From: a virus
Length of the DNA: 20,224 bases
Virus record (IMG/VR): IMGVR_UViG_3300027741_000326
Location: 1-20,224 of that record
Reading direction: 5' to 3' (one strand)
Made by a program: the position numbers and the translations under genes. Within the stretch, counting starts at the first letter, position 1, and every line of letters starts with the position of its first letter. The notes beneath the pieces were generated by a model that was not told the DNA's origin, did not search any database, and was given only the letters and a program-made list of their open reading frames with translations. This document shows positions 1 through 10,128 of the stretch, piece after piece.

Positions 1-21
1 CAATTCAGCAACAGTCATCAT
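1..21 (-). CDS. Start of a minus-strand gene cut by the window edge
   Basis: Only seven codons are visible (MMTVAEL). They follow a purine-rich ribosome site (GAAAGGGAAA) and a good promoter at 43-71. Nothing can be said about function. The ATG at 18 is an equally possible start. Confidence 0.5.
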
Positions 22-42
22 TTTCCCTTTCGTGTTGCTAGT

Positions 43-71
43 ATCTTACACTACTATTATCGACAAGTCAA
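43..71 (-). promoter_or_regulatory. Promoter TTGACT-17-TAAGAT
   Basis: The -35 is at 66-71 and the -10 at 43-48, with a 17-bp spacer containing GTCGATAATAGTAG. It drives the gene that leaves the window on the left. Confidence 0.75.
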
Positions 72-99
72 GAGGAAATCTTGAAAAAATCTTTTTAAA

Positions 100-181
100 C
101 GCAAAGTCTTTAGCAGCAAGGACTTACGGCGAACGCGGCCCGCCCGGCTTTCCCTAAGTCCTTATCCTGTCATGAGTTACC
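100..181 (-). repeat. Four-arm GC-core element, copy 1
   Basis: The two inner arms are a perfect 9-bp inverted repeat, AAGGACTTA and TAAGTCCTT, around the core CGCGGCCCGCCCGG. The zinc-ribbon gene at 170-295 ends inside the right arm. An A/T-rich run follows on the promoter side. Confidence 0.85.
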
Positions 182-295
182 AATAAACCACCAATGACAC
201 TGCTGGCAAAACTTCCAGATAACCCCATTATTATCATATCTCCATACCAGAGTATCACACTCTCCACATGGACAAATATCGCTAAGAATTTTCAA
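170..295 (-). CDS. 41-aa zinc-ribbon protein, TTG start
   Basis: This very small protein carries CPCGEC near residues 8-13 and CQQC at 30-33, the knuckle spacing of a zinc ribbon with a Trp-rich tail. Such proteins usually bind nucleic acid or brace a partner; the function here is unknown. The TTG start at 295 is chosen because GGAG lies 7 nt upstream and no ATG fits. It overlaps the end of the gene at 282-494, so it is probably translationally coupled as last gene of its operon. The stop falls inside repeat copy 1. Confidence 0.65.
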   Translation of the reverse strand: MKILSDICPCGECDTLVWRYDNNGVIWKFCQQCHWWFIGNS

Positions 296-494
296 GCACT
301 AGCTCCACGTATTTGTTTACCAATTCCGTCACCGATACCTCATGTAAACCAATCAACTCCTTAGCTTTGCTCACATTATGCTTATTTGCAGCAGCCATAC
401 GAGAGTTAAAAAAGTTGATAAGATACATCATAGCCTGCTCACGATTCATGTTGCAGGCTTCCACAGTATTCAAGTCTCTAAAGCTTTTAGCCAT
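282..494 (-). CDS. 70-aa hypothetical protein
   Basis: I do not recognise this family. It is a mixed, probably helical protein containing NREQAMMYLINFFNSR and ending VELVLENS. The start at 494 is preferred over the longer frame beginning at 536 because GAGGAG sits 6 nt upstream and the upstream gene's stop lies just before it. It is the fifth gene of the operon driven from 1245-1273. Confidence 0.75.
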   Translation of the reverse strand: MAKSFRDLNTVEACNMNREQAMMYLINFFNSRMAAANKHNVSKAKELIGLHEVSVTELVNKYVELVLENS

Positions 495-496
495 CT

Positions 497-814
497 TTAC
501 TCCTCGTAGAATCCCATACGACCTTCGGTAGTCCACACTTCTTTACCATTAACGGTAATCAGTCTAGGATAATCGTCGGGATAGTCTTTACTAGGCTTTT
601 CCGGCCTATCCATCTTACCATCATCTAACATCCACCACGGAGCATCCATGCGATCAACCAAGCCGGGAGACTCATGGCAAATCATAAGATGTGGACTCAC
701 CATGTCATGTGGAGCATATCGATACTCTCCACACCACACACCGATATACTCACCATAATACCAGATACCCTGACCATCTTCTGGCTGTCGTTCAAAAAAA
801 CTAATCCATTCCAT
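497..814 (-). CDS. 105-aa DUF551-like phage protein
   Basis: The protein opens EWISFFERQPEDG and later has a PWWM motif followed by a Pro/Asp-rich stretch. This recalls DUF551-type small phage proteins, which begin WIS...R.P and end near a W-M-P motif. Function is unknown even within that family. Its ATG overlaps the TAA of the upstream gene (TAATG), indicating coupled translation. The match is from memory of the motif, not an alignment. Confidence 0.75.
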   Translation of the reverse strand: MEWISFFERQPEDGQGIWYYGEYIGVWCGEYRYAPHDMVSPHLMICHESPGLVDRMDAPWWMLDDGKMDRPEKPSKDYPDDYPRLITVNGKEVWTTEGRMGFYEE

Positions 815-939
815 TATTTAGTTACCTCAATATGCCACTTTGTTCCACGGAGTTCGGCAGTAACACTCATGCCCAACTTAACCAGTTCAGCCACAATTTC
901 GGCCAACCGCTCAATCTCATTAATATTTAAATAGATCAT
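814..939 (-). CDS. 41-aa hypothetical protein
   Basis: A short frame (MIYLNINEIERLAEIVAEL... to HIEVTK) with a strong GGAGG site 7 nt before the ATG. It ends in TAATG, sharing bases with the next start. The first 23 residues look amphipathic-helical and the rest beta-like. No family recognised; support comes from ribosome site, spacing and coupling. Confidence 0.7.
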   Translation of the reverse strand: MIYLNINEIERLAEIVAELVKLGMSVTAELRGTKWHIEVTK

Positions 940-1000
940 TACCAACCCTCCGGCATAGGAATCTCTTGGAAGCTAGTATATCTGGTGTGACATTCAACAT
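920..1000 (-). CDS. Possible 26-aa peptide
   Basis: ATG at 1000 follows GAGGAG at good spacing and reads MLNVTPDILASKR to LFKY, overlapping the next start out of frame. The ribosome site is real, but the overlap is larger than elsewhere in this operon, so it may be a leader peptide or nothing. Confidence 0.3.
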   Translation of the reverse strand: MLNVTPDILASKRFLCRRVGNDLFKY

Positions 1001-1023
1001 GACATTCTCCTCTTATAAAATTA

Positions 1024-1218
1024 TTATTTGGATATCTCAATATCCTTCGTAGGAAACCAACCTCGCCAACTATCATTCAAATTTTCTACCATAATAGCAA
1101 GCTCACCATGCCAGCAAACCACACTACGCTCTTCCTGAACCACAATAAATTCACCCGGATGCAGCTTAAGACGTTCTTTCGTCCATTTCCGTGCATTCTG
1201 TTTTGCAGTAATTTTCAT
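1024..1218 (-). CDS. 64-aa hypothetical protein
   Basis: First gene of a five- to six-gene operon running down to position 170. It is Lys/Arg-rich at the N terminus (MKITAKQNARKWTKERLK) and then beta-rich with several Trp (CWHGELAIMV, WRGWFPT). No family recognised. AAGGA lies upstream and the promoter at 1245-1273 places the RNA start about 20 nt before the ATG. Confidence 0.75.
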   Translation of the reverse strand: MKITAKQNARKWTKERLKLHPGEFIVVQEERSVVCWHGELAIMVENLNDSWRGWFPTKDIEISK

Positions 1219-1244
1219 AAGTGTAGATTTCCTTGCGTCAAGCC

Positions 1245-1273
1245 ATTCTACACTACTATTATCGACCTGTCAA
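1245..1273 (-). promoter_or_regulatory. Promoter TTGACA-17-TAGAAT
   Basis: -35 at 1268-1273 and -10 at 1245-1250. The spacer GGTCGATAATAGTAGTG carries the GNCGATA word. It drives the operon 1218 to 170. Confidence 0.85.
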
Positions 1274-1301
1274 TGGAGTTTTCTTTAGAGAATTCTTTTT
1301 T

Positions 1302-1385
1302 GACGTAAAGCATTGAGAGATAAGGAGTTAGAACAAACCCGGCCGCCCCAACTTGACGTAAGTCGTTACCAGCGGATCATTTACG
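1302..1385 (-). repeat. Four-arm GC-core element, copy 2
   Basis: Arms TGACGTAAAG, AAGGAGTTAG, GACGTAAGTCGTTACC and CATTTACG surround the core CCCGGCCGCCCC. This copy follows the structured RNA rather than a protein gene, so the element is a feature of unit ends, not of stop codons. Confidence 0.75.
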
Positions 1386-1970
1386 CCCCGATCCTATAAC
1401 CCACCAATACTCCGATATTATGAACCCTTGGAGCAAGGTAAAAACTGGTGGAAACCGTCCACGGAAATCCTCCCTGCAAAGCGATTGTCTGCTAGCAACA
1501 GATCGCTCTGGTCTGGCTCTTGGGAACGGTTACTGATTGTTCGGTATCCGGCTGTTATTTCAGCGATCCTACCCGATGAAGGATAAGACACGGCTTTAGC
1601 ACCATGGTGTTAATTCACTCCATTACCCGATGAAGGATAATACCGGATTGTATTGTCAATGTGGTGGGATTTTACCCACACTGCCCTATGGCGGTCTAAC
1701 GGACGGTTGTGGTAGTACTCCCGCCAACCGTTGGCTGCTTAACGCTTAACCTACACATTGTATTAGAGCGTGGCAGAGGAATCGCACCCCTATAGATTAG
1801 TATCGGTTCCCAGTGCATAACCAGCACAGCCGTCCCCAATAGGTTATCTAATCTAGTCGCTAGACCCACGCATGATTGTATTGTAAAGCAAATAGGGTTG
1901 AGCCATACTCGACAGCCATTTAACCGTGGCTCCTTTGATATCATTCTGCCAGCGGCCCTCATCTGCTTAT
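1386..1970 (-). ncRNA. Large structured noncoding RNA candidate (about 585 nt)
   Basis: The region has its own promoter (1977-2005), and repeat copy 2 marks its end. Perfect inverted repeats close successive domains: 1900-1905 with 1927-1932; 1768-1773 with 1866-1871; 1793-1800 with 1848-1855, stacked on 1817-1822 with 1842-1847; 1657-1663 with 1754-1760; 1542-1547 with 1640-1645; and 1480-1485 with 1502-1507. Small hairpins sit at 1775-1791, 1664-1679, 1448-1462 and 1426-1438. A 17-nt direct repeat occurs at 1570-1586 and 1624-1640. The one long frame here (1998 to 1696) begins at a GTG inside the promoter, upstream of the expected RNA start, so it is not a gene. Size and phage setting resemble ROOL or GOLLD RNAs; identity is unproven. 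A new class, or a divergent known one, is equally possible. Confidence 0.65.
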
Positions 1971-1976
1971 GTGCTA

Positions 1977-2005
1977 AGTATACATCTATTATCGTCACTT
2001 GTCAA
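1977..2005 (-). promoter_or_regulatory. Promoter TTGACA-17-TATACT of the structured RNA
   Basis: -35 at 2000-2005 and -10 at 1977-1982. The spacer contains GACGATAATAGATG. The RNA start is expected near 1970. It is among the strongest promoters in the window. Confidence 0.85.
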
Positions 2006-2042
2006 GAGGTTTCTATAGGAATTCCAAAAATTTTTTAGAGTT

Positions 2043-2128
2043 GATGTAACCCTATGATACACAAGCACTTACGTCAAAGTCGGCCGGCCCGCCCTATCCC
2101 TAAGTTCTTTAAGGATAAGGACTTACGA
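2043..2128 (-). repeat. Four-arm GC-core element, copy 3
   Basis: Inner arms AAGCACTTACG and TAAGTTCTT flank the core CGGCCGGCCCGCCC. The outer right arm AAGGACTTACG abuts the stop of the gene at 2129-2332. Confidence 0.85.
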
Positions 2129-2332
2129 TTAGTTGTTACTAGCCCCAATAGACTCACGAACCCTAACCACCCCATCTCTTTCAGCAATCTCAAGAGCCTT
2201 ACAAAAGAACTCAAAGAAAATATCCAGTTCTTGGCGCATAGACTTCTCATCAACAGTAGCAGCGGTCAGCAAACGAGTAGCAAAATCAGCCACACACTCA
2301 CAAACAGCGTCTCGTTCGTCACTCGTCAACAT
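2129..2332 (-). CDS. 67-aa hypothetical protein
   Basis: Single-gene unit. The sequence (MLTSDERDAVCECVADFATRL then ELDIFFEFFCKALEIAERDG) looks all-helical and acidic. No family recognised. AAAGGGATAG precedes the ATG, and the promoter at 2353-2381 is about 20 nt upstream. The stop touches repeat copy 3. Confidence 0.75.
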   Translation of the reverse strand: MLTSDERDAVCECVADFATRLLTAATVDEKSMRQELDIFFEFFCKALEIAERDGVVRVRESIGASNN

Positions 2333-2352
2333 AATTCTATCCCTTTCTGCCC

Positions 2353-2381
2353 AATATACTCTATTAAAGACTCTTTGTCAA
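2353..2381 (-). promoter_or_regulatory. Promoter TTGACA-17-TATATT
   Basis: -35 at 2376-2381, -10 at 2353-2358. This is one of three promoters without a GNCGATA word. Just upstream on the transcribed strand is a small GGCTG...CAGCC hairpin after the gene at 2429-2578. Confidence 0.8.
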
Positions 2382-2428
2382 GCCCCGACTACTGGCTGAC
2401 TATACCCATCCAGCCCAAATCCGTAGGA

Positions 2429-2578
2429 TTAGGCAGGACAACTATTGGAAATTCGCTCAAGTAGCAAATTCTTCCCATACAACTTCTCTGCCTGACACAA
2501 GGCATGGTAGGTACTGTACGCTTCAATATAGCCTACAACCTTATTGCCTTTCATCACCATATAAGTATCAGTATTCAT
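2429..2578 (-). CDS. 49-aa hypothetical protein
   Basis: ATG at 2578 overlaps the TGA of the preceding gene (TGATG), with GAGGAGG just upstream, so coupled translation is clear. The protein reads MNTDTYMVMKGNKVVGYIEAY and then a helical AEKLYGKNLLLER. It resembles a small beta-beta-alpha domain, but no family is recognised. Confidence 0.75.
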   Translation of the reverse strand: MNTDTYMVMKGNKVVGYIEAYSTYHALCQAEKLYGKNLLLERISNSCPA

Positions 2579-2859
2579 CACTCATCCTCCTCTTGTGTTC
2601 CTGCGAACATGGTTTCCCAAGCCTGAGCGTCGATTCCTGTCATCAGAATTTCACGCTCATCAGCATTGAGATAGGGGAAACAATTTTGAATCAACTCTCC
2701 GTTGACCCAACGCTGGGCATCTTCAAGCTTGGTGACGATACTAAACTGACTACCGCTAGTGGACAACCCACTGAACTCGATCATATCCACATCATTTACT
2801 GTGGTGATCGTGCGAGTTGTACGATCCGACAAAGCATACGGCTTATTGAACATGAACAT
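2578..2859 (-). CDS. 93-aa conserved phage-type hypothetical protein
   Basis: The C-terminal half contains WVNGELIQNCFPYLNADEREILMTGI, a pattern (W-x-G-x-x-I-Q-x-x-x-P-Y-L-x-x-x-x-R-E) I recall from small proteins in phages and their hosts; its function is unknown. The N-terminal half is Thr/Ser-rich and the tail acidic. AAGGAG lies upstream of the ATG, and the promoter at 2885-2913 gives a short leader. First of a two-gene unit. Confidence 0.8.
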   Translation of the reverse strand: MFMFNKPYALSDRTTRTITTVNDVDMIEFSGLSTSGSQFSIVTKLEDAQRWVNGELIQNCFPYLNADEREILMTGIDAQAWETMFAGTQEEDE

Positions 2860-2884
2860 CTGTTTTCTCCTTTTGATTCCCTGT

Positions 2885-2913
2885 ATTCTACACTACTATT
2901 ATCGGCTTGTCAA
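2885..2913 (-). promoter_or_regulatory. Promoter TTGACA-17-TAGAAT
   Basis: -35 at 2908-2913, -10 at 2885-2890. The spacer AGCCGATAATAGTAGTG is nearly identical to that of the promoter at 1245-1273. Confidence 0.85.
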
Positions 2914-2940
2914 GAGAAAAAACTTGAGCAAAAAAAGATT

Positions 2941-3025
2941 GTCGTAAAGTGTTGGGGCGTAAAGACTTACGACTCGCGGGGCGGGCCGACCTCGCCCTAA
3001 GTCCTTTGGTGTCAAAGGGTTAGGG
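2941..3025 (-). repeat. Four-arm GC-core element, copy 4
   Basis: Arms TCGTAAAGTG, AAAGACTTACG, CCCTAAGTCCTTT and CAAAGGGTTAG; core CGCGGGGCGGGCCG. Seven T follow on the transcribed strand after the last arm. Confidence 0.85.
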
Positions 3026-3058
3026 GTTGGTCAGTTAGTAGGCAGAGACTGCTAGTTT

Positions 3059-3463
3059 TTAGAACAGGTTAGCAAACCCGCTCTTGAACAAAGCACCGGC
3101 CAGCAAAGGCTTTCGGCACTTGGTCACTCGCTCTGCATAGAAATTACGCACCTTACCATCCGCAGTTCGACACGTTACCAGATTGGTAGTACGCACAAAC
3201 TCAGGATCATTGATACGATATCGGCTCTTTCGATTCAGTCTCTTAATCTGGTCAGCAGTCAGCGTCTGCTTGCCGATCACCTTGGCAAGAAAACGCTCAT
3301 GCGTTCCATGCAAAGGCTGCTCGTAAACAAAGTTGAAAACCTGACCCTCTTGGGCATTCGCCAAGCTAGCCTTCGATCCACCATAGACCGAATAGAAGAC
3401 GAAACCCACAACAGCAGCGGCAACAGCCGACAGAATCGAACCAAACAAAATCACATCGTTCAT
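3059..3463 (-). CDS. 134-aa membrane-anchored hypothetical protein
   Basis: Residues 4-27 (VILFGSILSAVAAAVVGFVFY) form one membrane helix, followed by a soluble domain with the pattern PLHGTHERFLAKV...RLNRKSRYRINDPEF and NLVTCRTADGKVRNFYAER. I take the latter as a conserved phage-type domain of unknown function. The start at 3463 is preferred over the longer frame at 3502, because 3502 coincides with the expected RNA start and AAAGGG stands before 3463. The protein probably faces its soluble domain into the cytoplasm or envelope; orientation is not determined. Confidence 0.75.
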   Translation of the reverse strand: MNDVILFGSILSAVAAAVVGFVFYSVYGGSKASLANAQEGQVFNFVYEQPLHGTHERFLAKVIGKQTLTADQIKRLNRKSRYRINDPEFVRTTNLVTCRTADGKVRNFYAERVTKCRKPLLAGALFKSGFANLF

Positions 3464-3508
3464 AGAAACCCTTTCAAATTGAAAACCGATCACAACTTCC
3501 ATACGCCA

Positions 3509-3537
3509 AGTCTACACTAATTATCGTCATTTGTCAA
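3509..3537 (-). promoter_or_regulatory. Promoter TTGACA-17-TAGACT
   Basis: -35 at 3532-3537, -10 at 3509-3514. The spacer holds GACGATAATTAG. There is no GC-core element between this promoter and the upstream gene. Confidence 0.8.
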
Positions 3538-3562
3538 GCGGGAACTTTAGAAAAATTTTGGT

Positions 3563-3769
3563 TCACCACCCATTACGGCGACACTCTTCATTCCAAGCGT
3601 CTACCTCTGCTTTTTGCTTACGGGTAACTGCCGGACCCTCGCCCGTCAAGTAAGCGTCACGAGCGGCATCATAGCCGTCATCACTATCTTCCATTGGCTC
3701 GCAATGTTCCTTGCATCGAGTGCAAATATCACCACGATAAATCAGAACTCCACAGCAATCGCTCAACAT
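3563..3769 (-). CDS. 68-aa zinc-ribbon-like protein
   Basis: MLSDCCGVLIYRGDICTRCK then EHCEP: Cys pairs at residues 5-6 and 16/19 plus C23 form a compact zinc site, followed by an acidic Asp-rich linker and a basic tail. The same Cys plan occurs in the gene at 9948-10097, so the two are probably paralogs. Function unknown. Single-gene unit with its own promoter (3797-3825) and no terminating repeat. Confidence 0.8.
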   Translation of the reverse strand: MLSDCCGVLIYRGDICTRCKEHCEPMEDSDDGYDAARDAYLTGEGPAVTRKQKAEVDAWNEECRRNGW

Positions 3770-3796
3770 ACTTCACTCTCTTTCTTGTATACCATC

Positions 3797-3825
3797 ATTC
3801 TACCATATATTATCGGCAAAATCAA
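3797..3825 (-). promoter_or_regulatory. Promoter TTGATT-17-TAGAAT
   Basis: -35 at 3820-3825, -10 at 3797-3802. The spacer has GCCGATAATATATGG. Confidence 0.7.
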
Positions 3826-3836
3826 GGGGCAAACTT

Positions 3837-3861
3837 GAATCTTACGGAATTGTAAGGATTC
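3837..3861 (-). repeat. CTTAC-GTAAG hairpin, copy 1
   Basis: GAATCTTAC and GTAAGGATTC pair with one bulge around GGAATT. It sits between the GC-core element and the promoter. Confidence 0.6.
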
Positions 3862-3946
3862 TCGTAAAGTGTTGGTAGATAAGGACTTACGACGAACCCG
3901 GCCCGCCCCGTCGGCCCTAAGTGCTTGAACACAAAGGGTTTACGAC
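3862..3946 (-). repeat. Four-arm GC-core element, copy 5
   Basis: Arms TCGTAAAGTG, AAGGACTTACG, CCCTAAGTGCTT and AAAGGGTTTACG; core CCCGGCCCGCCCC. It starts about 10 nt after the stop of the gene at 3957-4187. Confidence 0.85.
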
Positions 3947-3956
3947 GAGGGAGAGT

Positions 3957-4187
3957 TTACTCAAAATCAACAAAGATGATCTGAGCATAGCCGCGAGGCT
4001 TAACGGTATAACCGTCGCCATAGTCAAGGGTATCAGCCTTAACCGCAGTCATACCAGCAAGAGCCTTAGCCTTACGAATAACGCTACGCTGAGAAGCATT
4101 CTTCTTGGGGATAAACTCATAACGATTCACCCAACCATAGTTAGCTTCACCGCCATAAGTATCAGTATGGGTAACAACGCACTTCAT
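3957..4187 (-). CDS. 76-aa conserved phage-type hypothetical protein
   Basis: Last of a five-gene operon. The sequence has NYGWVNRYEF, a basic helix SQRSVIRKAKALAGMTAVK, and YTVKPRGYAQIIFVDFE. I recall a similar W-V-x-R...R-A-K-x-L...G-D pattern in small phage proteins of unknown role. Its ATG overlaps the upstream TGA (ATGA). Confidence 0.8.
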   Translation of the reverse strand: MKCVVTHTDTYGGEANYGWVNRYEFIPKKNASQRSVIRKAKALAGMTAVKADTLDYGDGYTVKPRGYAQIIFVDFE

Positions 4188-4321
4188 TTTGCCAATTCCT
4201 TTGCTTTCAGGGTTTCCAGATACAACTTTTCCAACAGATTCACGCGAGCAATCGCACGATTAGCTTCACGTTCCATAAGCATAACAGCTTTCTGGTGATT
4301 TGTCAATGGTCTCTTTTTCAT
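4184..4321 (-). CDS. 45-aa helical hypothetical protein
   Basis: A basic, all-helical protein (MKKRPLTNHQKAVMLMEREA then RVNLLEKLYLETLKAKELAK), with a possible coiled coil over residues 12-44. GGAG lies 6 nt before the ATG, and ATGA overlap couples it to the next gene. No family recognised. Confidence 0.75.
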   Translation of the reverse strand: MKKRPLTNHQKAVMLMEREANRAIARVNLLEKLYLETLKAKELAK

Positions 4322-4322
4322 T

Positions 4323-4478
4323 TCAATCTCCATAAGTATCAGAATCGTTCATGTAAATCAATCGAGCAACTCGGTTAGAACAATTATGTTCCTTATCCCA
4401 ACCGTTTTCGATTTCTGGAGACTTATCGGACAATCCAACAGAACGACGATACTCAATCCACTTTTCTTCGTTTGTCAT
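4323..4478 (-). CDS. 51-aa hypothetical protein
   Basis: MTNEEKWIEYRRSVGLSDKS followed by an acidic stretch with one Cys and a helix RVARLIYMNDSD. It starts in an ATGA overlap with the gene at 4475-4627 and ends 1 nt before the next start. Support comes from tight operon packing and the purine-rich site before the ATG. Confidence 0.7.
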   Translation of the reverse strand: MTNEEKWIEYRRSVGLSDKSPEIENGWDKEHNCSNRVARLIYMNDSDTYGD

Positions 4479-4627
4479 TTCTTTTCTTCTTCTTTCTTCA
4501 ACGGGCCACGATAGCCTCTGAACCTTCTCAACTCACCATAGTAGTTACGGCTAGCAGAACCATATGGGGTTTTTCGACGCTTGGTGGTTCTACATGGTTC
4601 AATCGGTTTGATTTCTTCATTATCCAT
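4475..4627 (-). CDS. 50-aa basic hypothetical protein
   Basis: Strongly basic in the middle and at the end (RTTKRRKTPYG, ELRRFRGYRG, LKKEEEKK), which suggests nucleic-acid or ribosome contact; this is inference only. The upstream gene's end supplies GAGGAAT, and the ATG at 4627 follows its TAA directly. Confidence 0.7.
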   Translation of the reverse strand: MDNEEIKPIEPCRTTKRRKTPYGSASRNYYGELRRFRGYRGPLKKEEEKK

Positions 4628-4629
4628 TT

Positions 4630-4818
4630 TTATTCCTCGATTTCACTCACATAACACTCACAACCAAACTCATAGCCAGCCTTACGCTTGGCTTCACTTT
4701 CGCTACGACAATCAATAACCATTCCAAGGTGCTTGTTGTCGCTCTTGCGATAGACCACATACATTCCCGTATCATGACGATTATACGGATTAAAACGACC
4801 TTCGTAATACCTACTCAT
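4630..4818 (-). CDS. 62-aa hypothetical protein
   Basis: First gene of the five-gene operon. MSRYYEGRFNPYNRHDTGMY then strand-like YVVYRKSDNKHLGMVIDCRS and a helix SEAKRKAGYEFG, with two late Cys. The leader carries the purine-rich word GAAAGAGAGA seen in many units. No family recognised. Confidence 0.75.
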   Translation of the reverse strand: MSRYYEGRFNPYNRHDTGMYVVYRKSDNKHLGMVIDCRSESEAKRKAGYEFGCECYVSEIEE

Positions 4819-4853
4819 TCTTCACTCTCTCTTTCTCTATCTCTTATATCGAC

Positions 4854-4882
4854 ATTTTAGCAGATAAAACTTTAGTTGTCAA
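4854..4882 (-). promoter_or_regulatory. Promoter TTGACA-17-TAAAAT
   Basis: -35 at 4877-4882, -10 at 4854-4859. Here GTCGATA lies just downstream of the -10 rather than in the spacer. Confidence 0.8.
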
Positions 4883-4893
4883 ACGGAAAGTTT

Positions 4894-4911
4894 CCTTGCA
4901 ATTTCGTAAGG
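4894..4911 (-). repeat. CTTAC-GTAAG hairpin, copy 2
   Basis: CCTTGC and GTAAGG pair, with one wobble, around AATTTC, between copy 6 of the GC-core element and the promoter. Confidence 0.6.
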
Positions 4912-4914
4912 TTC

Positions 4915-5000
4915 TCGTAAAGTGTTGCAGCATAAAGACTTACGTCAAATATGGCCCGCCCCGCCAGCCCTAAGTGCTTATGCACAAAGGGTTTATGGCG
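4915..5000 (-). repeat. Four-arm GC-core element, copy 6
   Basis: Arms TCGTAAAGTG, GCATAAAGACTTACG, CCCTAAGTGCTTATGC and AAAGGGTTTATG; core GGCCCGCCCCGCC. The inner arms are extended by GCATAA/TTATGC, giving a longer stem than in other copies. Confidence 0.85.
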
Positions 5001-5005
5001 AGTGT

Positions 5006-5404
5006 TTAGAATTTTCCTCCAAAATCTGGACTTATCCCAAGTTGCTGCTGAACATCCTCATCGTCCAGAATATCTTGGTCAATCATAAAATCCATATCAT
5101 TAAAGAACATTTCGATTTCTGGCTGTCCATCATGGGCCATAATAGATGTAAAATCATAGATCATAAAGTAAGCCGTAGCTTGAACCCATGATTCCACAAG
5201 CCCCGAATGTAGCTCAATAGTATCTCGATTAGTATAAACATACTCTATCGCAGAACACTTAGTATTATCATCCATCTCATCCCACACGGGAATTTCTTGA
5301 TTGTGCTTGTTCAGTTCTTCATCCAGCACACCATCTTCACGCCACTGTACATAGTTTTCATATGTAGCTTCAATCATACCCGTTGCAATCTTTCGATACT
5401 GCAT
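5006..5404 (-). CDS. 132-aa acidic hypothetical protein
   Basis: Mostly helical and acidic (TYENYVQWREDGVLDEELNK, then SWVQATAYFMIYDFTS, then DILDDEDVQQQLGISPDFG). No family recognised. The ATG at 5404 follows AAAGGAAAAGG. It is the last gene of a four-gene operon, and its TAA lies 5 nt before repeat copy 6. Confidence 0.75.
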   Translation of the reverse strand: MQYRKIATGMIEATYENYVQWREDGVLDEELNKHNQEIPVWDEMDDNTKCSAIEYVYTNRDTIELHSGLVESWVQATAYFMIYDFTSIMAHDGQPEIEMFFNDMDFMIDQDILDDEDVQQQLGISPDFGGKF

Positions 5405-5421
5405 TGTCCTTTTCCTTTCAA

Positions 5422-5766
5422 TTAGTCGTTATAGGGATCGTCTTCATTATAGTCAACAAATCCCACAGCCTCATCGGCGTGGAAATCTTCCTGATAGTCT
5501 AAATCTTCCCCGTAATAGCCGTAATCTTCGTCGGTTCCATGTCCTGCGGAAGCCAACGCAGATTCAGCATCACCATCCATACTATCATCAAACGAATCAT
5601 TCTCAAATTCTCCAACGGTATCATCTTCCTCAAAATCATCAAAATGATTCTTTCGATTATCTTCGTCGTGGAAATCATTGTGATCATCATAGTTCTCATC
5701 TTCGATCATCATATCATCATCCTCATAAGAGTTATCGGGATCAAACAATGGATCAGGGTGGCTCAT
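5422..5766 (-). CDS. 114-aa Asp/Glu-rich protein
   Basis: Extremely acidic throughout (EDDDMMIEDENYDDHNDFHDE, FDDFEEDD), with many Tyr and Phe and hardly any Lys or Arg. Probably disordered. DNA-mimic or chaperone-like roles are known for such compositions, but nothing in the sequence proves either. AAGGAC stands before the ATG at 5766, 4 nt after the stop of the 23-aa peptide gene. Confidence 0.75.
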   Translation of the reverse strand: MSHPDPLFDPDNSYEDDDMMIEDENYDDHNDFHDEDNRKNHFDDFEEDDTVGEFENDSFDDSMDGDAESALASAGHGTDEDYGYYGEDLDYQEDFHADEAVGFVDYNEDDPYND

Positions 5767-5770
5767 GATA

Positions 5771-5842
5771 TTAGTCCTTCACGATGGTGATAGTATAAAA
5801 CAAACCGATATAACCCACAACAAAAGCAATTGCACTAAGCAT
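5771..5842 (-). CDS. 23-aa single-helix membrane peptide
   Basis: MLSAIAFVVGYIGLFYTITI plus VKD: one membrane helix and little else. GAGGAG lies 7 nt before the ATG, which overlaps the end of the upstream gene. The next gene starts 4 nt after the stop. Those three facts make a translated microprotein likely. Role unknown. Confidence 0.65.
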   Translation of the reverse strand: MLSAIAFVVGYIGLFYTITIVKD

Positions 5843-6008
5843 TAGTATACTCCTCTGGAACAAACTCGTCAACAGCACCAACAACATCGGCCCAATCCCA
5901 AAAGTTGACTTCCACACTGGGATCGTCAATCGGCTCGACCATCGGCTCAAGGATACCGGCTTCAGCCATATCGTTCAGAATATCATTGATCTCGTCGAAG
6001 TTCAGCAT
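5835..6008 (-). CDS. 57-aa acidic hypothetical protein
   Basis: MLNFDEINDILNDMAEAGIL, a Pro/Glu middle, then a Trp-rich WDWADVVGAVDEFVPEEY. The start at 6008 is used because the longer frame (to 6074) begins inside the -35 box of the promoter at 6046-6074. No family recognised. First gene of its operon. Confidence 0.7.
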   Translation of the reverse strand: MLNFDEINDILNDMAEAGILEPMVEPIDDPSVEVNFWDWADVVGAVDEFVPEEYTNA

Positions 6009-6045
6009 GATTCTGGTTCCTGTGGTTTCCGTTCGTGATGCTGCG

Positions 6046-6074
6046 ATTATACTCTTATTATCGGCCGGTGTCAA
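6046..6074 (-). promoter_or_regulatory. Promoter TTGACA-17-TATAAT (perfect consensus)
   Basis: -35 at 6069-6074, -10 at 6046-6051. The spacer contains GGCCGATAATAAGAG. Confidence 0.85.
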
Positions 6075-6133
6075 GCAGAAACTTGGAAAATTCCAAAATA
6101 TAATTCCATGCCAAAGATGAAAAATTTTTTAGT

Positions 6134-6220
6134 TGACGTAAAGTGTTGGTACATAAAGACTTACGCTTCGCGGGGGCGGCCGGACTCGCCGTAAGTCCTT
6201 ACTGGTGAAGGAGATACGTC
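6134..6220 (-). repeat. Four-arm GC-core element, copy 7
   Basis: Outer arms TTGACGTAAAG and GATACGTCAA, inner arms GACTTACG and CGTAAGTC (perfect 8-bp inverted repeat), core GCGGGGGCGGCCGG. The gene at 6199-6408 ends inside this copy, so part of the element is coding. Confidence 0.85.
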
Positions 6221-6408
6221 AAGCCACATCCTAGAATGAAACACACCCCTAATAGAACATAATCACTGATTTTCATCATTTTCCTCCATATACATGATAT
6301 TTGACATACTAGCATACAGTACGATACCACAAATGTAGCCAAAAGCAACGCTAATAAAATCAAATTGATACATCCCTGTATCTCCATAGTTAAGTGGTCA
6401 ATCCCCAT
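6199..6408 (-). CDS. 69-aa two-helix membrane protein
   Basis: Two hydrophobic segments (about residues 14-36 and 48-66) separated by a short basic loop IWRKMMK. An internal ATGATG preceded by GGAGG could also start a separate 25-aa single-helix form, so two products are possible. The ATG at 6408 overlaps the upstream stop. Phage proteins of this plan include holins and membrane modulators; no specific motif is seen. Confidence 0.65.
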   Translation of the reverse strand: MGIDHLTMEIQGCINLILLALLLATFVVSYCMLVCQISCIWRKMMKISDYVLLGVCFILGCGLTYLLHQ

Positions 6409-6586
6409 ATCCTACCCAAAAATCATCACCCTTATCATTCTTCATAAGAGTATAACCCCGACTCCTCATGGCCTCATACTCGTTTATCCTCTGCCACACT
6501 TCCCCCACAATAGAGAGAAAGTAGACAAAACCCAAAACTAAAAGCATAACCCCCACCCAAGCCCACACCAGAATAAAAGCACTCAT
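6398..6586 (-). CDS. 62-aa single-helix membrane protein
   Basis: Residues 3-27 (AFILVWAWVGVMLLVLGFVYF) form one membrane helix. The rest is a short soluble tail with EYEAMRSRGYTLMKNDKGDD. GGAGG lies 8 nt before the ATG, in the end of the upstream gene. With its neighbour it forms a membrane-protein pair; role unknown. Confidence 0.7.
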   Translation of the reverse strand: MSAFILVWAWVGVMLLVLGFVYFLSIVGEVWQRINEYEAMRSRGYTLMKNDKGDDFWVGYGD

Positions 6587-6589
6587 GGG

Positions 6590-6787
6590 TCAAGCCTCCA
6601 CAGTATTGGCGACATGGATCATATTCTCACACTGGTCAAGATAGCACGAACGATATTCGGTCAGACCGATTTTCACAATCATCATCTTTCCCTTGGGCTT
6701 GTCAAGAACCCTACGAACTTCACCACGGTAATTCTCACCCTTATAATCAAACTCAACCCAATCATACCGCTTGATATCGTCTCTCAT
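6590..6787 (-). CDS. 65-aa beta-rich hypothetical protein
   Basis: RYDWVEFDYKGENYRGEVRR, then KGKMMIVKIGLTEYRSCYLD. This reads like a small SH3-like barrel, but no family is assigned. The frame is open to 6877, but the promoter at 6834-6862 lies inside that extension. ATG at 6787 has GAGG at ideal spacing; ATG at 6811 is the alternative. Confidence 0.65.
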   Translation of the reverse strand: MRDDIKRYDWVEFDYKGENYRGEVRRVLDKPKGKMMIVKIGLTEYRSCYLDQCENMIHVANTVEA

Positions 6788-6833
6788 ACGTTCCTCTTGG
6801 TTACTGGTCATCTTCTCTACATCTATTATCGAC

Positions 6834-6862
6834 ATTCTACACTGCAAAACTTTAGTTGTCAA
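6834..6862 (-). promoter_or_regulatory. Promoter TTGACA-17-TAGAAT
   Basis: -35 at 6857-6862, -10 at 6834-6839, with GTCGATAATAG immediately downstream of the -10. Confidence 0.8.
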
Positions 6863-6924
6863 CCTTACAAGACCCACAGGTTCCGCTGACTAGTCTGACT
6901 AGGCTCCGTTTCGACCCCATAGGG

Positions 6925-7107
6925 TTAGCTGAGACTAGCCAAAGACAAAGATTCTTCACGATACCTACGAAGCAATTCTGTGGCAAGATAGGAAATATGC
7001 TGTTTCCTCAATTCGATCATTTCGGGATCAGTATCCCTAGATAGCCTGACCTGTTCAAGCCACAGATTATCTTGCAAAACCCTAGTGGAAAATTCTTTCA
7101 TCTTCAT
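6925..7107 (-). CDS. 60-aa helical hypothetical protein
   Basis: A charged helical protein (STRVLQDNLWLEQVRLSR, then MIELRKQHISYLATELLRRY). No family recognised. The leader has the purine-rich word ACAAGAAAGAGAGA before the ATG. Downstream are several CTAGTC repeats and a small hairpin but no GC-core element. Confidence 0.7.
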   Translation of the reverse strand: MKMKEFSTRVLQDNLWLEQVRLSRDTDPEMIELRKQHISYLATELLRRYREESLSLASLS

Positions 7108-7127
7108 TCTCTCTTTCTTGTCCTACT

Positions 7128-7156
7128 ATCTTACCAAATTTTTCTGCCGTCGTAAA
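7128..7156 (-). promoter_or_regulatory. Weak promoter TTTACG-17-TAAGAT
   Basis: The -10 at 7128-7133 is good, but the -35 at 7151-7156 is poor. There is no GNCGATA word. Placed by position before the gene at 6925-7107. Confidence 0.45.
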
Positions 7157-7162
7157 CCCCTA

Positions 7163-7387
7163 TTATGCGGGGGTAGGTTGTGACCGATAATACTTCGCCC
7201 ACAGTTCATCCATCACGAACTGGACAACACGATCATGAGTACCACGACAAACGTAGTATCCCATGTGAATGTCGAACAGGGCAAACGAGCCATCCTCTTT
7301 CGGATGAAATGTGAACCCACACTTGTAGGCATACCCATTGATCTTACCCTTGACAGTCGAAACTTTCGGAGGCTTTCTCATTTTCAT
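7163..7387 (-). CDS. 74-aa hypothetical protein
   Basis: Basic N terminus (MKMRKPPKVSTVKGK), then beta-rich GYAYKCGFTFHPKEDGSFALF and a helical C terminus RVVQFVMDELWAKYY. No family recognised. The frame is open to 7438, but that start lies within the -35 box, so ATG at 7387 with its purine-rich leader is used; ATG at 7381 is an alternative. Single-gene unit. Confidence 0.7.
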   Translation of the reverse strand: MKMRKPPKVSTVKGKINGYAYKCGFTFHPKEDGSFALFDIHMGYYVCRGTHDRVVQFVMDELWAKYYRSQPTPA

Positions 7388-7409
7388 TTTCTCTCTTTCT
7401 TGTCTTACC

Positions 7410-7438
7410 ATTATACATCTATTATCGTCAAATGTCAA
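7410..7438 (-). promoter_or_regulatory. Promoter TTGACA-17-TATAAT (perfect consensus)
   Basis: -35 at 7433-7438, -10 at 7410-7415. The spacer holds GACGATAATAGATG. Confidence 0.85.
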
Positions 7439-7460
7439 TAGGGTAGACCAGAAAAAATTT

Positions 7461-7478
7461 TCTTACAATCTCGTAAGG
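7461..7478 (-). repeat. CTTAC-GTAAG hairpin, copy 3
   Basis: TCTTAC and GTAAGG flank AATCTC. A second hairpin, ATAGGCA-TCG-TGCCTAT, lies further on near 7530-7547. Confidence 0.55.
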
Positions 7479-7551
7479 TTCGTAGATAAGTTTGGCACAA
7501 GATTTGCTAGTGATGCAAAGATAGGCATCGTGCCTATAGAATAATCATTGA

Positions 7552-7637
7552 ATGTAAGTCATTACAGCATAAGCACTTACGTCGAGCCGGGGCGGCCCGC
7601 CTCGCTCTAAGTCCTTTAGTAGCAAGGCTTTACGTCA
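7552..7637 (-). repeat. Four-arm GC-core element, copy 8
   Basis: Arms ATGTAAGTCATT, AAGCACTTACG, CTCTAAGTCCTTT and AAGGCTTTACGTCAA; core CCGGGGCGGCCCGCC. The TGA of the gene at 7635-7775 lies within the last arm. Confidence 0.85.
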
Positions 7638-7775
7638 AGTTTTTCGTTTTCTGTATATTCGTTCAGTACCCACCCATACGGGTAGGTATAGCTTAGGGTA
7701 CAGCTGTACATACTTACTCTTTACCCATCGCTCAGTCTCTAGTGTAACGTCGTACACTAGTGTACAGTCGTTCAT
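7635..7775 (-). CDS. 46-aa basic hypothetical protein
   Basis: MNDCTLVYDVTLETERWVKS followed by Tyr- and Leu-rich KYVQLYPKLYLPVWVGTE and a basic tail RIYRKRKT. It starts in an ATGA overlap with the upstream gene and has AAGGGAG before the ATG. Its coding sequence holds two perfect palindromes, GTACAGCTGTAC and GTACACTAGTGTAC. No family recognised. Confidence 0.7.
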   Translation of the reverse strand: MNDCTLVYDVTLETERWVKSKYVQLYPKLYLPVWVGTERIYRKRKT

Positions 7776-8146
7776 TCTTCTCCCTTGAAGCTGAACGGAC
7801 TGATTTCCAGATGAGCAACCGCACCGTATTGCTTGGTCAGTTCCTCGACACGCTCACGGCTTCCCGGCTTGCCAACCGGGACGATCATGGTATCCTGTCC
7901 CCCCACATAGCGGGGGTCGGCCTTTTCCTTGCGAACCTTGCCCAGATTCTTCAGGGCAGTACGATTGAACTTGAGAACCTTTTCGGTCACAACGTAACGC
8001 TTGTGGTCAGTCACGCCGTGAACGTAGTCAACGTCGATGATAAACTGTTCATCGCTCACTTCGTGGCGAACGGGAATCGCGATACCCTTGAAAATCATAC
8101 GGGCTTGACGCTTGGCATTTTCGATGATGGGGAACTTGGTTTTCAT
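7772..8146 (-). CDS. 124-aa hypothetical protein
   Basis: Mixed alpha/beta protein: basic N terminus (ENAKRQARMIFKG), then FIIDVDYVHGVTDHKRYVVT, then VGGQDTMIVPVGKPGSRERV. The last part resembles a nucleotide- or nucleic-acid-binding surface, but no known motif is complete. Start at 8146 follows the leader AAGAAAGAGAGAAAGCC. First of two coupled genes. Confidence 0.75.
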   Translation of the reverse strand: MKTKFPIIENAKRQARMIFKGIAIPVRHEVSDEQFIIDVDYVHGVTDHKRYVVTEKVLKFNRTALKNLGKVRKEKADPRYVGGQDTMIVPVGKPGSRERVEELTKQYGAVAHLEISPFSFKGEE

Positions 8147-8171
8147 GGCTTTCTCTCTTTCTTGTGTGTGT

Positions 8172-8200
8172 ATTATACCAAAATGATTTTATCTTGTCAA
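8172..8200 (-). promoter_or_regulatory. Promoter TTGACA-17-TATAAT (perfect consensus)
   Basis: -35 at 8195-8200, -10 at 8172-8177. There is no GNCGATA word. The hairpin at 8201-8218 abuts its -35. Confidence 0.85.
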
Positions 8201-8218
8201 CCTTACAATGTCGTAAGG
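8201..8218 (-). repeat. CTTAC-GTAAG hairpin, copy 4
   Basis: CCTTAC and GTAAGG pair perfectly around AATGTC. It lies directly between the stop of the gene at 8220-8405 and the next promoter, the position expected of a transcription end signal. Confidence 0.65.
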
Positions 8219-8219
8219 T

Positions 8220-8405
8220 TCAGAAACTCTTTCCGCAAGCAGCTTCCCATTCTGCGGGAGCGTAGCCATTTTCGATTTCAGTGGTCGAACACTCACAGAT
8301 CACACCACCAAGATTCACCACCCACACATCACCCTCATCGAAGAACCAATTGACAATCTTGCCAGTGATTCCACCCATCCGAACGCTATCACCAATTTCA
8401 AACAT
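8220..8405 (-). CDS. 61-aa KOW/SH3-like small protein
   Basis: FEIGDSVRMGGITGKIVNWF then DVWVVNLGGVICECSTTEIE has the rhythm of a small SH3-like barrel: G-D-x-V-x-x-x-G-x-x-G-x-V, a V-x-V strand, and a final T-E-I/L. Such domains are common in small phage proteins; the partner is unknown. The C-terminal 15 residues are a short Trp-containing tail. Single-gene unit with promoter at 8446-8474. Confidence 0.75.
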   Translation of the reverse strand: MFEIGDSVRMGGITGKIVNWFFDEGDVWVVNLGGVICECSTTEIENGYAPAEWEAACGKSF

Positions 8406-8445
8406 TCTTTTCTCTCTTTCTTTCTTCTCTATCTCTTATATCGTC

Positions 8446-8474
8446 ATTATACCATGCTCATCTTGAGCTTGCAA
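8446..8474 (-). promoter_or_regulatory. Promoter TTGCAA-17-TATAAT
   Basis: -35 at 8469-8474, -10 at 8446-8451. GACGATA lies just downstream of the -10. Confidence 0.7.
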
Positions 8475-8559
8475 GAGAAATCTAGAGATTTTATTGTCAA
8501 GAAATTTTGACAAAACTTTTCGTCATTTTCTTTCTCATTGGCATACCATTTGCTAAGTC

Positions 8560-8644
8560 GTCGTAAAGTCTTATGGGGCAAGTACTTACGTCGAGCGGGG
8601 CCCGCCCGCCTTGCCCTAAGTGCTTTAGGGTCAAGGACTTACGT
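8560..8644 (-). repeat. Four-arm GC-core element, copy 9
   Basis: Arms CGTAAAGTCTT, AAGTACTTACG, CCCTAAGTGCTTT and CAAGGACTTACG; core CGGGGCCCGCCCGCC. Outer arms are also complementary to each other. The stop of the gene at 8645-8962 abuts the right end. Confidence 0.85.
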
Positions 8645-8962
8645 CTAGTAGATCAGATTCATATCGGCCACAACCATACCATCTTCATACTCTAGGCCAC
8701 TTTCCAGATACCATTCTCCCTTGCGTTGATATACACGCACGGGCGAATACTGGTTGATTCTATCCTTAGTTGTTGCAGTATGCCAACCCCCACTATTGAG
8801 GGTAGCACTATTGTCGGGATGAATCTTTACCACATAGGTACTATGCAGCATGATCCCTACGCTACCGTCGGGAAGAATTTCCGCATAGGTATTGTTACCA
8901 ACCTTGCGAGTATCACGATTAGTCTTACCACGAACCATCTTCACTGCTTCAAAATGTGTCAT
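8645..8962 (-). CDS. 105-aa conserved phage protein (SGGWxT-TTKxRIN type)
   Basis: The middle carries VGNNTYAEILPDGSVGIMLH, then TYVVKIHPDNSATLNSGGWH and ATTKDRIN, followed by VYQRKGEWYLE. I recall this pattern (N-x-T-Y, H-x-T-x-V, L-N-S-G-G-W-x-T-x-T-T-K-x-R-I-N) from a widespread family of small phage proteins with no known function. Last of a four-gene operon. The ATG at 8962 lacks a strong ribosome site, so it may rely on coupling to the gene just upstream. Confidence 0.85.
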   Translation of the reverse strand: MTHFEAVKMVRGKTNRDTRKVGNNTYAEILPDGSVGIMLHSTYVVKIHPDNSATLNSGGWHTATTKDRINQYSPVRVYQRKGEWYLESGLEYEDGMVVADMNLIY

Positions 8963-8967
8963 TTTGT

Positions 8968-9075
8968 TTACCAGCTTTCGCTGATCATCCCTAGTAATTG
9001 TTGAAGAAACTGTAAAATCTCTTTAATATTGTATGTAGCATAATCTACATACCCATCGGGCAGATACCTAGACAT
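8968..9075 (-). CDS. 35-aa hypothetical protein
   Basis: MSRYLPDGYVDYATYNIKEI then LQFLQQLLGMISESW: a Tyr-rich start and an amphipathic helix. GAGGAG at ideal spacing before ATG 9075 decides the start; the frame is open further upstream but overlaps the next gene. No family recognised. Confidence 0.65.
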   Translation of the reverse strand: MSRYLPDGYVDYATYNIKEILQFLQQLLGMISESW

Positions 9076-9082
9076 ATTCTCC

Positions 9083-9202
9083 TCAGTCGTTTTCATGTAG
9101 CATAGAATGGATAGCGTTACCCACTTCATGCACAGTGTAGGTGATAAATGCACAACAGCTAATTAGTGCAGCTAATTGAATATAATCGATCATAGTCAAC
9201 AT
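9083..9202 (-). CDS. 39-aa single-helix membrane peptide
   Basis: Residues 6-24 (DYIQLAALISCCAFITYTV) form a membrane helix, followed by a short polar tail HEVGNAIHSMLHEND. It fills the gap between two coupled genes and its TGA overlaps the next ribosome site. The start is uncertain (9202 or the ATG three codons later). Confidence 0.55.
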   Translation of the reverse strand: MLTMIDYIQLAALISCCAFITYTVHEVGNAIHSMLHEND

Positions 9203-9213
9203 GTCAATATCTT

Positions 9214-9429
9214 TCAAGAGGCGTGAATGAATACTTGTTCGTTTCTCAGTCGGCTATTAATGGTCACGATCCAGTTCTTTCCGCTACCATCCTCACGCAT
9301 GATACCATTGACAAGTCCCACATGAGCATTACCCTTGGGGTCGAGCACGCAGTGATACTTGCCAGCTCGCATAGCAGAGAAAAGCTTGTCAAGGTTATTC
9401 GTTACCGGCTTATAGGCTGTTGCAAACAT
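9214..9429 (-). CDS. 71-aa conserved phage-type hypothetical protein
   Basis: GKYHCVLDPKGNAHVGLVNG then IMREDGSGKNWIVTI and VFIHAS. The REDGSGxxxxVT motif recurs in small phage proteins I have seen, likely beta-rich, of unknown role. AAGGAAAAAC precedes the ATG at 9429. First gene of its operon, promoter at 9458-9487. Confidence 0.75.
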   Translation of the reverse strand: MFATAYKPVTNNLDKLFSAMRAGKYHCVLDPKGNAHVGLVNGIMREDGSGKNWIVTINSRLRNEQVFIHAS

Positions 9430-9457
9430 GTTTTTCCTTTTTCTTTCTTGTTTTTCT

Positions 9458-9487
9458 ATTATAGAGTATCGGCTAGGTTGTTGTCAA
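9458..9487 (-). promoter_or_regulatory. Promoter TTGACA-18-TATAAT
   Basis: -35 at 9482-9487, -10 at 9458-9463. The spacer contains GCCGATACTC. Confidence 0.75.
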
Positions 9488-9501
9488 TACTGTACAAACT
9501 A

Positions 9502-9735
9502 TCAGTTGACCGCAAAATCATCCACAACATATCCCATCTCGTCAATCTCGATCCAACCGCCATCATCCATAAAGCCCAGTTCGTCGTCGATTGCGATCTG
9601 GTTATATCCGCTCGCACGAACATGGTCGAGAAGATCAGAAGCAAAAGCAACCCGACCAACCAAGGTAGAAAGGCTGGTGTTGTCAAGGAACTCAATCAAC
9701 TCAGCCACAGTGTTCAGAACGATCAGGTTTTCCAT
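9502..9735 (-). CDS. 77-aa hypothetical protein, paralog of 10163-10402
   Basis: NTVAELIEFLDNTSLSTLVG then ASDLLDHVRASGYNQIAIDD and an acidic ending EIDEMGYVVDDFAVN. It aligns by eye along its whole length with the 79-aa protein at 10163-10402: shared ELxxFL, S-x-x-TLVG, D-x-x-G-x-x-x-(D/E)DF. The leader CAAGAGGACAAGAAA before the ATG is identical in both. Function unknown. Confidence 0.8.
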   Translation of the reverse strand: MENLIVLNTVAELIEFLDNTSLSTLVGRVAFASDLLDHVRASGYNQIAIDDELGFMDDGGWIEIDEMGYVVDDFAVN

Positions 9736-9773
9736 TTTCTTGTCCTCTTGTTGTCTCTTGTTCTTATATCGAC

Positions 9774-9801
9774 ATTATACAGAGTATTCTTTAGGTTGCA
9801 A
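9774..9801 (-). promoter_or_regulatory. Promoter TTGCAA-16-TATAAT
   Basis: -35 at 9796-9801, -10 at 9774-9779, with GTCGATATAAG right after the -10. Confidence 0.65.
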
Positions 9802-9812
9802 GCGAAAAGTTT

Positions 9813-9830
9813 CCTTACAATTTCGTAAGG
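9813..9830 (-). repeat. CTTAC-GTAAG hairpin, copy 5
   Basis: CCTTAC and GTAAGG pair perfectly around AATTTC. It is almost identical to the copy at 4894-4911, including the flanking GAAAGTTT stretch. Confidence 0.65.
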
Positions 9831-9860
9831 TTCGCAGTGCAAATGTCATGCCAATTGCTA

Positions 9861-9943
9861 TAACCTCTTACTACGTAACCACTTACGTCAAATCGGGGCC
9901 GCCCGGCAAATTGTAAGTCTTTATAGCATAAGGCTTTACGTCA
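9861..9943 (-). repeat. Four-arm GC-core element, copy 10
   Basis: Inner arms CCACTTACG and TTGTAAGTC, outer right arm AAGGCTTTACGTCAA, core CGGGGCCGCCCGG. The left outer arm is degenerate. Confidence 0.75.
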
Positions 9944-9947
9944 AGCC

Positions 9948-10097
9948 TCAATACTCCCCATTATCTTCAATCACTTCCTCTCCGATAACCTCACAGTGTT
10001 CACCACAGCTAGGGCAGATACCGTAATCAACTTGGGCGAAAGTCATGTTGCAACCGCAGCAGTCAGAAGTGAAGTAGACGGTAACGACGTTTTCCAT
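9948..10097 (-). CDS. 49-aa zinc-ribbon protein
   Basis: DCCGCNM...YGICPSCGEHCEV: a Cys cluster near residues 13-16 and a CPSCGEHC knuckle near 28-35, followed by an acidic tail. The EHCE ending matches the protein at 3563-3769, suggesting paralogs. Single-gene unit with AAGGAAAAGAACC before the ATG. Confidence 0.8.
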   Translation of the reverse strand: MENVVTVYFTSDCCGCNMTFAQVDYGICPSCGEHCEVIGEEVIEDNGEY

Positions 10098-10128
10098 GGT
10101 TCTTTTCCTTTTCTCTTGTGTTGATTCT

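Follow-up and report, generated by a model that had tools for sequence, protein, structure and literature searches.

Stable noncoding RNAs are a known part of the gene inventory of phages. In the tRNA cluster of phage T4, the stable RNAs C and D (species 1 and 2), which are not tRNAs, stem from an early transcript that they share with the tRNAs. A tRNA-like module is also part of YrlA, a bacterial Y RNA, whose partner is the Ro protein. The ornate RNA GOLLD assembles into a 14-mer nanocage, and its 3' region is universally conserved, while its 5' region is variable. GOLLD is found in phages and prophages, is often longer than 800 nt and sometimes carries tRNAs in a linker; ROOL, which is 659 nt long in the solved example, forms an 8-mer nanocage (PMC12286853). 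Both are phage RNAs that are often encoded near tRNA islands and form symmetric cages (PMC12286853).

The window analysed here covers 20,224 nt of the genome of an uncultured tailed phage and encodes the terminase (15353-17380) and the portal protein (17436-19649). The terminase shares at most about 33% identity with GenBank phages and has hundreds of relatives in IMG/VR. The left arm (1-11450) has a G+C content of about 43% and carries many small unknown genes on the minus strand; it changes sharply into a region of about 33% G+C (11450-20224), in which structural and packaging genes lie on the plus strand. The packaging genes are adjoined by genes for a nucleotide-sugar epimerase and an ERCC4-type nuclease (13054-14046 and 14316-14798). 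The left arm bears repeated TTGACA/TATAAT promoters. It also contains the imperfect G+C-rich palindrome CTTACGTC..GGCCCGCC..CTAAGTCCTT about eleven times; the copies are located between transcription units and look like punctuation cassettes (Table 1).

Comparison with related loci confirms that the structured noncoding RNA proposed for the window is genuine and has a promoter of its own. The initial annotation had proposed a minus-strand RNA of about 585 nt at 1386-1970 with a promoter at 1977-2005. This promoter was recovered as TTGACA-17-TATACT, reading from 2005 to 1977 on the minus strand, and the predicted RNA start at about 1970 stands; the 3' end, however, had to be corrected, since module M4 runs on to about 1365. 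The array thus covers 1365-1970 on the minus strand and gives rise to an RNA of at least about 606 nt. A copy of the G+C-rich palindromic repeat marks its 3' border; the 3' end of the array shows no convincing U-tract terminator. Promoters of the type used by the array recur ahead of the other early genes of the phage, and the A/T-rich stretch CATCAACTCTAAAAAATTTTTGGAATTCC upstream of the array promoter is possibly an UP-like element; the 75 nt reaching from this stretch into the 5' leader are 96-99% identical in L004, L011, L103, L251 and L100. The folding energy of the region is unremarkable (z = -1.34; opposite strand, -1.91), and the support for the RNA is therefore comparative, namely covariation and the strand asymmetry of G-U pairs. 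Across the arrays compared, 295 G-U pairs were counted versus 20 A-C mismatches, which, as had been proposed, identifies the minus strand as the RNA strand. The 100-aa reading frame at 1998-1696 was rejected as a protein gene: homologs with the same start run into stop codons at codon 7, 22, 33 or 49, no codon-type conservation was detected, and the earlier view that the region lacks a credible reading frame is upheld.

First homologs came from a scan with a 17-nt pattern, taken from the hairpin that is duplicated in the RNA, and from relatives of the terminase; three further pattern scans and profile searches brought the collection to 72 distinct arrays, and a scan restricted to M0a returned 106 stretches. 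The 72 arrays lie in contigs of uncultured phages, which reach a length of about 244 kb. In 60 of the 72 arrays (1.8 expected), the first recognised module is preceded by a promoter of the TTGACA-17-TATACT kind at a distance of up to 350 nt. Neither the 585-nt region nor M0a or M1 had a match among 50,697 GenBank phage records, and the whole array of a relative matched only a tRNA gene or tRNA-like stretch in GenBank phages. The pattern matches in the bacterial contigs L253 and L254, which lack an M1 match, and in L323, which appeared in the scan for M0a loop types, were discarded as chance matches.

The 72 arrays are built from at least nine recurrent module families and many rarer ones, which follow a fixed order. 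In the window, five self-contained structured modules are arranged as M0a-M1-M2-M3-M4 from 5' to 3' (Table 1). The relatives usually start with M0a or M0b, followed by M1, optionally M2, M3, M6 or M7, then M4 and optionally M5; exceptions are a few relatives in which M2 or M6 is located ahead of an M1. The modules are joined by linkers, whose common form is ACAATACAA and which show no conserved pairing; their core AATAYAA occurs 172 times in the 72 arrays versus 19.3 times expected. Segments that lie between linkers and outside of the named modules form further clusters or are singletons, and many of them possess closing stems of their own.

Table 1. Features of the RNA array and its surroundings in the 20,224-nt window.
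Feature	Coordinates	Strand	Basis or remark
A/T-rich conserved stretch CATCAACTCTAAAAAATTTTTGGAATTCC	2008..2046	-	upstream of promoter
Promoter TTGACA-17-TATACT	1977..2005	-	11/12 matches
Module M0a, three helices	1886..1968	-	R3 match, 97.7 bits
Linker ACAATACAATC, M0a to M1	1874..1884	-	position between modules; AATAYAA count
Module M1, short variant	1768..1871	-	R1 match, 72 bits
Linker TCTAATACAATG, M1 to M2	1756..1767	-	last bases double as start of M2 closing helix
Module M2, closing helix CAATGTG/CACATTG	1657..1760	-	profile matches in window and six other contigs
Linker ACAATACAATCCGG, M2 to M3	1643..1656	-	its ATCCGG is the 5' strand of the M3 closing helix
Module M3, closing helix ATCCGG/CCGGAT	1546..1648	-	identity to L011
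Linker ACCGAACAATC, M3 to M4	1535..1545	-	position between modules
Module M4, near-universal 3' module	1365..1535	-	R2 match, 111.7 bits
Imperfect G+C-rich palindromic repeat, separates transcription units	1299..1367		repeat families D1-D3 and inverted repeats
G+C-rich palindrome copies	96-186, 1300-1390, 2041-2133, 2939-3030, 3859-3950, 4912-5002		
G+C-rich palindrome copies, continued	6133-6224, 7549-7640, 8558-8649, 9855-9945, 10526-10613		

Domain-closing inverted repeats had been noted in the region before, and they are indeed present: closing helices are seen in M0a, M1, M2, M3 and M4, the last of which contains an additional inner helix. M0a is closed by the repeat AAGCAGAT../ATTTGCTT and has a hairpin loop of the form AGAA-TGATATCA-AAGGA, whose central 8 nt (1936-1943) are palindromic. 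M1 is closed by the helix GCGTGG/CCACGC, which encloses a D-arm-like and a T-arm-like hairpin, and forms a pseudoknot between ATAACC (1842-1847) and the loop GGTTAT (1817-1822). M2 contains the T-arm-like hairpin GTGGG-TAAAAT-CCCAC and the palindrome AGTACT (1714-1719) in a hairpin loop, and two hairpins of M3 share one loop, TATCC-TTCATC-GGGTA. M4 combines the closing helix AACCG/CGGTT and the inner helix CCACCA/TGGTGG with three hairpins, the variable P2, which bears the palindrome TGCTAGCA apically (1490-1497), the exchangeable P3, and P4 (GGATC/GATCC).

Covariation was scored for M1, M4 and M0a on alignments fitted to covariance models made for these modules, which lean towards the fitted structure: 96.2% of the cells were paired in M1 and both sides had changed in 25 of 41 pairs (67 sequences), compared with 94.2% and 22 of 29 pairs in M4 (64 sequences) and 92.9% and 10 of 16 pairs in M0a. 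For all three modules, none of 500 shuffles matched the observed covariation, and pairing fell below 50% when the 3' partner was shifted by one to three columns. The bulge-loop pseudoknot of M1, which is absent from the model and hence exempt from this leaning, reached 99.7% pairing, and both of its sides had changed at three positions. Independent MAFFT alignments gave the same covariation pattern; a strict tree-simulation test, which has low power on MAFFT alignments, retained few pairs at E < 0.05. Furthermore, the 14 distinct arm pairs of M4-P2 are 98.6% paired versus 56.7% with shuffled arms. Taken together, covariation is strong in the three families tested.

The closest relative of the window differs from module to module, which shows that modules are exchanged between phages. 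M0a and M4 are nearest to L004 (97.7% identity), though several other arrays are equally near for M0a; M1 is nearest to L097 (97.2%), M2 to L243, L236 and L214 (97.1%), and M3 is 96.3% identical to L011 and at most 84.5% identical to the remaining arrays. Far-diverged M1 modules (29-36 bits) were observed in L132, L173, L214 and L231; they keep the helices and the pseudoknot, differ considerably in sequence and carry the loop TTGGATT, which is close to a true T-loop. In addition, the array of L210 (12220-12682) contains two M1-like copies, the second of which is truncated.

Several modules present self-complementary sequences in their hairpin loops. Of the distinct M0a sequences, 60 carry TGATATCA as the 8-nt palindrome of the loop and two carry TAACGTTA, with no other type; since part of this sample was fetched by a pattern demanding TGATATCA, only the M0a matches found by the model count as unbiased. 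The two sequences bearing TAACGTTA differ in scaffold, and in one of them, L210 (10471-10561), the M0a core is otherwise identical to that of its relatives. The step from TGATATCA to TAACGTTA requires four substitutions, which form two symmetric pairs, and self-complementarity of the loop is thereby kept. As the loop exists as two different 8-nt palindromes, loop-loop dimers are predicted. Among 29 distinct apical parts of M4-P2, 24 contain a palindromic stretch of 6 nt or longer (7.8 expected), and these palindromes are unlike in sequence (TGCTAGCA, GTCATGAC, TTCATGAA, TGCGCA, GGTACC and TGATCA). In M0b and M2, the palindromes TCCTAGGA and AGTACT are constant, while their stems vary; M1 has no self-complementary loop of this kind. 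Over all modules, the 94 representatives give a count of 26 versus 15.4 expected and 22 in the highest null set. Given this modest overall excess and the fact that counts from related sequences are not independent, self-association via kissing loops is a prediction rather than a demonstration.

M0a can also be found as a free gene. Each positive record contains exactly one copy (17/17 and 23/23, two records being common to both searches), which opens the array in some genomes and is located one to several kb away from it in others. Free M0a often abuts tRNA-Lys, for instance in L166, L173, L237, L234, L231 and L242, and tRNA-Leu in L008 and L012, and the junctions inspected measure 2-4 nt. In these genomes, free M0a is arranged like a stable RNA gene within a tRNA operon. 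A second link to tRNAs is provided by M5, a module that does not occur in the window and that contains a tRNA or tRNA-like insert scoring above the RF00005 gathering score in several relatives. This nesting within a structured module was seen in L002 (6894-6968), L103, L113, L246 and L182; the anticodon loops of these elements are odd, and ARAGORN assigns a four-base or two-base anticodon to some of them. In M1 and M2, T-arm-like and acceptor-like helices adjoin each other; neither module is recognised as a tRNA by ARAGORN or Rfam, and ARAGORN detects no tRNA (cloverleaf with anticodon) in the window.

On balance, we lean towards the view that the locus is an array of RNA cassettes, in which one promoter drives a chain of independently folding, exchangeable modules that act in trans and probably self-associate. 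Sequence comparison establishes that separate modules exist, that they keep a fixed order and are joined by linkers, that their folds covary, which strand forms the RNA, that it is non-coding, and that modules pass between phages. According to this reading, one early promoter would produce a chain of independently folding and partly pseudoknotted modules of about 80-180 nt each, which are held together by unstructured ACAATACAA linkers. Each module would act alone and in trans as a stable RNA, as in a tRNA operon, and might be released by tRNA-processing enzymes or by cleavage of the linkers; copies would probably pair via kissing loops to form dimers or larger assemblies. The near-constant modules M1 and M4 would provide a shared function. 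The variable slots between them may be adapted to the host, and their most plausible role would be to decoy or inhibit a factor that the host uses in RNA handling or defence. It is tempting to speculate that exchangeable RNA cassettes of jumbo phages, many with kissing loops, represent a new kind of mobile genetic organisation and form a multivalent complex that counters RNA-based or tRNA-targeting defences of the host; we regard this as unlikely. The fixed order and the near-constancy of M1 and M4 would, however, also fit one larger functional RNA.

Such an RNA could be a single giant ornate RNA resembling GOLLD and ROOL: a chain of 350-950 nt with M1 and M4 as its core and a variable periphery, which forms a symmetric homo-oligomer and perhaps a cage. 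We consider this a tentative possibility that deserves a minority share of confidence. Its length and phage origin, the tRNA genes nearby, the combination of a conserved core with variable parts and the self-complementary loops speak for it, as does the tRNA embedded in M5, since the linker of GOLLD also holds tRNAs (PMC12286853). The initial annotation had ventured a new member or a new class of the GOLLD and ROOL kind and had suggested a search with the Rfam models of ROOL, GOLLD, OLE and HEARO. This search gave no match to GOLLD, ROOL, OLE, HEARO or Y RNA in the window (up to E = 5) or in 13 homologous loci (up to E = 1), and tRNA, the only family matched among these arrays, showed that the search works; weak matches to ar14, STnc50 and sR5 were outside of the arrays and far below the cut-offs. 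That the phage encodes a strongly structured noncoding RNA of a new type, preceded by a strong promoter of its own, as the same annotation held, is supported by the lack of an Rfam match and the strong covariation. Membership in one of these families is not supported, and neither is one giant fold: in relatives, separate modules come and go independently. They are lost or swapped singly and are separated by linkers without conserved pairing. The main argument against one indivisible RNA is that M0a can stand outside of the array, as it does in many genomes. Furthermore, L103 has M5 and lacks M4, and the core is therefore not strictly constant. The array RNA is thus probably not one monolithic fold. 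Symmetric multimers, which had been put forward as a guess, gain independent support from the self-complementary apical loops of M0a, M0b, M2 and M4, while the assembly itself is a prediction.

Alternatively, the modules could be tandem riboswitch-like or other regulatory domains that act in cis on an early gene located downstream, as part of its 5' untranslated region, which we judge to be quite improbable. In at least 17 of the 72 arrays, and in up to 38 by a looser pattern, the last linker leads directly to a ribosome-binding site and the start codon of a reading frame, and some transcripts may hence also serve as mRNA leaders; the compact and pseudoknotted fold of M1 resembles that of metabolite-binding RNAs as well. 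However, in the window and several relatives, the gene that follows is preceded by a promoter of its own or lies beyond a palindromic cassette, and the downstream genes differ. A leader also does not explain the M0a copies beside tRNA genes in other genomes, where control of translation makes no sense. A decayed tRNA island, in which the modules are degenerate and now functionless tRNAs with altered anticodon arms, would account for the T-arm-like and acceptor-like helices of M1 and M2, the tRNA in M5 and, in L098, a tRNA match that lies ahead of M1 and just misses the cut-off (28.7 bits versus 29), but it is very improbable. Compensatory changes keep the helices and modules are 96-98% identical across phages, neither of which would result from decay; moreover, M0a, M3 and M4 are unlike tRNAs and ARAGORN reports none in the window.

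At least nine recurrent RNA families, none of which matches Rfam save for the tRNA insert of M5, and many rarer ones share one architecture whose domains are shuffled like gene cassettes. Such a system is a natural setting to ask how RNA folds recombine and assemble, and the two alternative M0a palindromes on otherwise nearly identical scaffolds make the specificity of homodimer formation directly testable. Should the variable slots respond to host defences, the arrays would correspond, at the RNA level, to the anti-defence islands of protein genes in phages.

No description of such RNA arrays was found in the largely open-access literature searched, and a second array of dissimilar structured RNAs that can be exchanged is not known to us. 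An identity with Y RNA or YrlA, with which the arrays share a tRNA-like part inside a noncoding RNA, was rejected, as Rfam gave no match and none of 20 of these phage records contained a Ro (TROVE) protein. The arrays resemble ROOL in length range, phage origin, the frequent proximity of tRNA islands and the presence of pseudoknots; they differ from it in their array organisation and the lack of an Rfam match, and no common order of stems was seen. Like GOLLD, the array RNA is a large structured phage RNA with tRNA genes nearby or a tRNA within, conserved and variable parts and, by prediction, self-association; in contrast to GOLLD, it consists of separate modules with a repeated linker, which are exchanged and one of which is able to stand alone. 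GOLLD combines a conserved 3' region with a variable 5' region; in the arrays, the near-constant M4 lies near the 3' end, and modules vary on both sides of M1 as well as after M4. The nearest concept would seem to be the tRNA cluster of T4, which includes the stable RNAs C and D: as in T4, several stable RNAs would stem from one early transcript, and M0a abuts tRNA genes; the array, however, is mostly made of non-tRNA modules, which are joined by a common linker, belong to nine or more families and are shuffled between phages.
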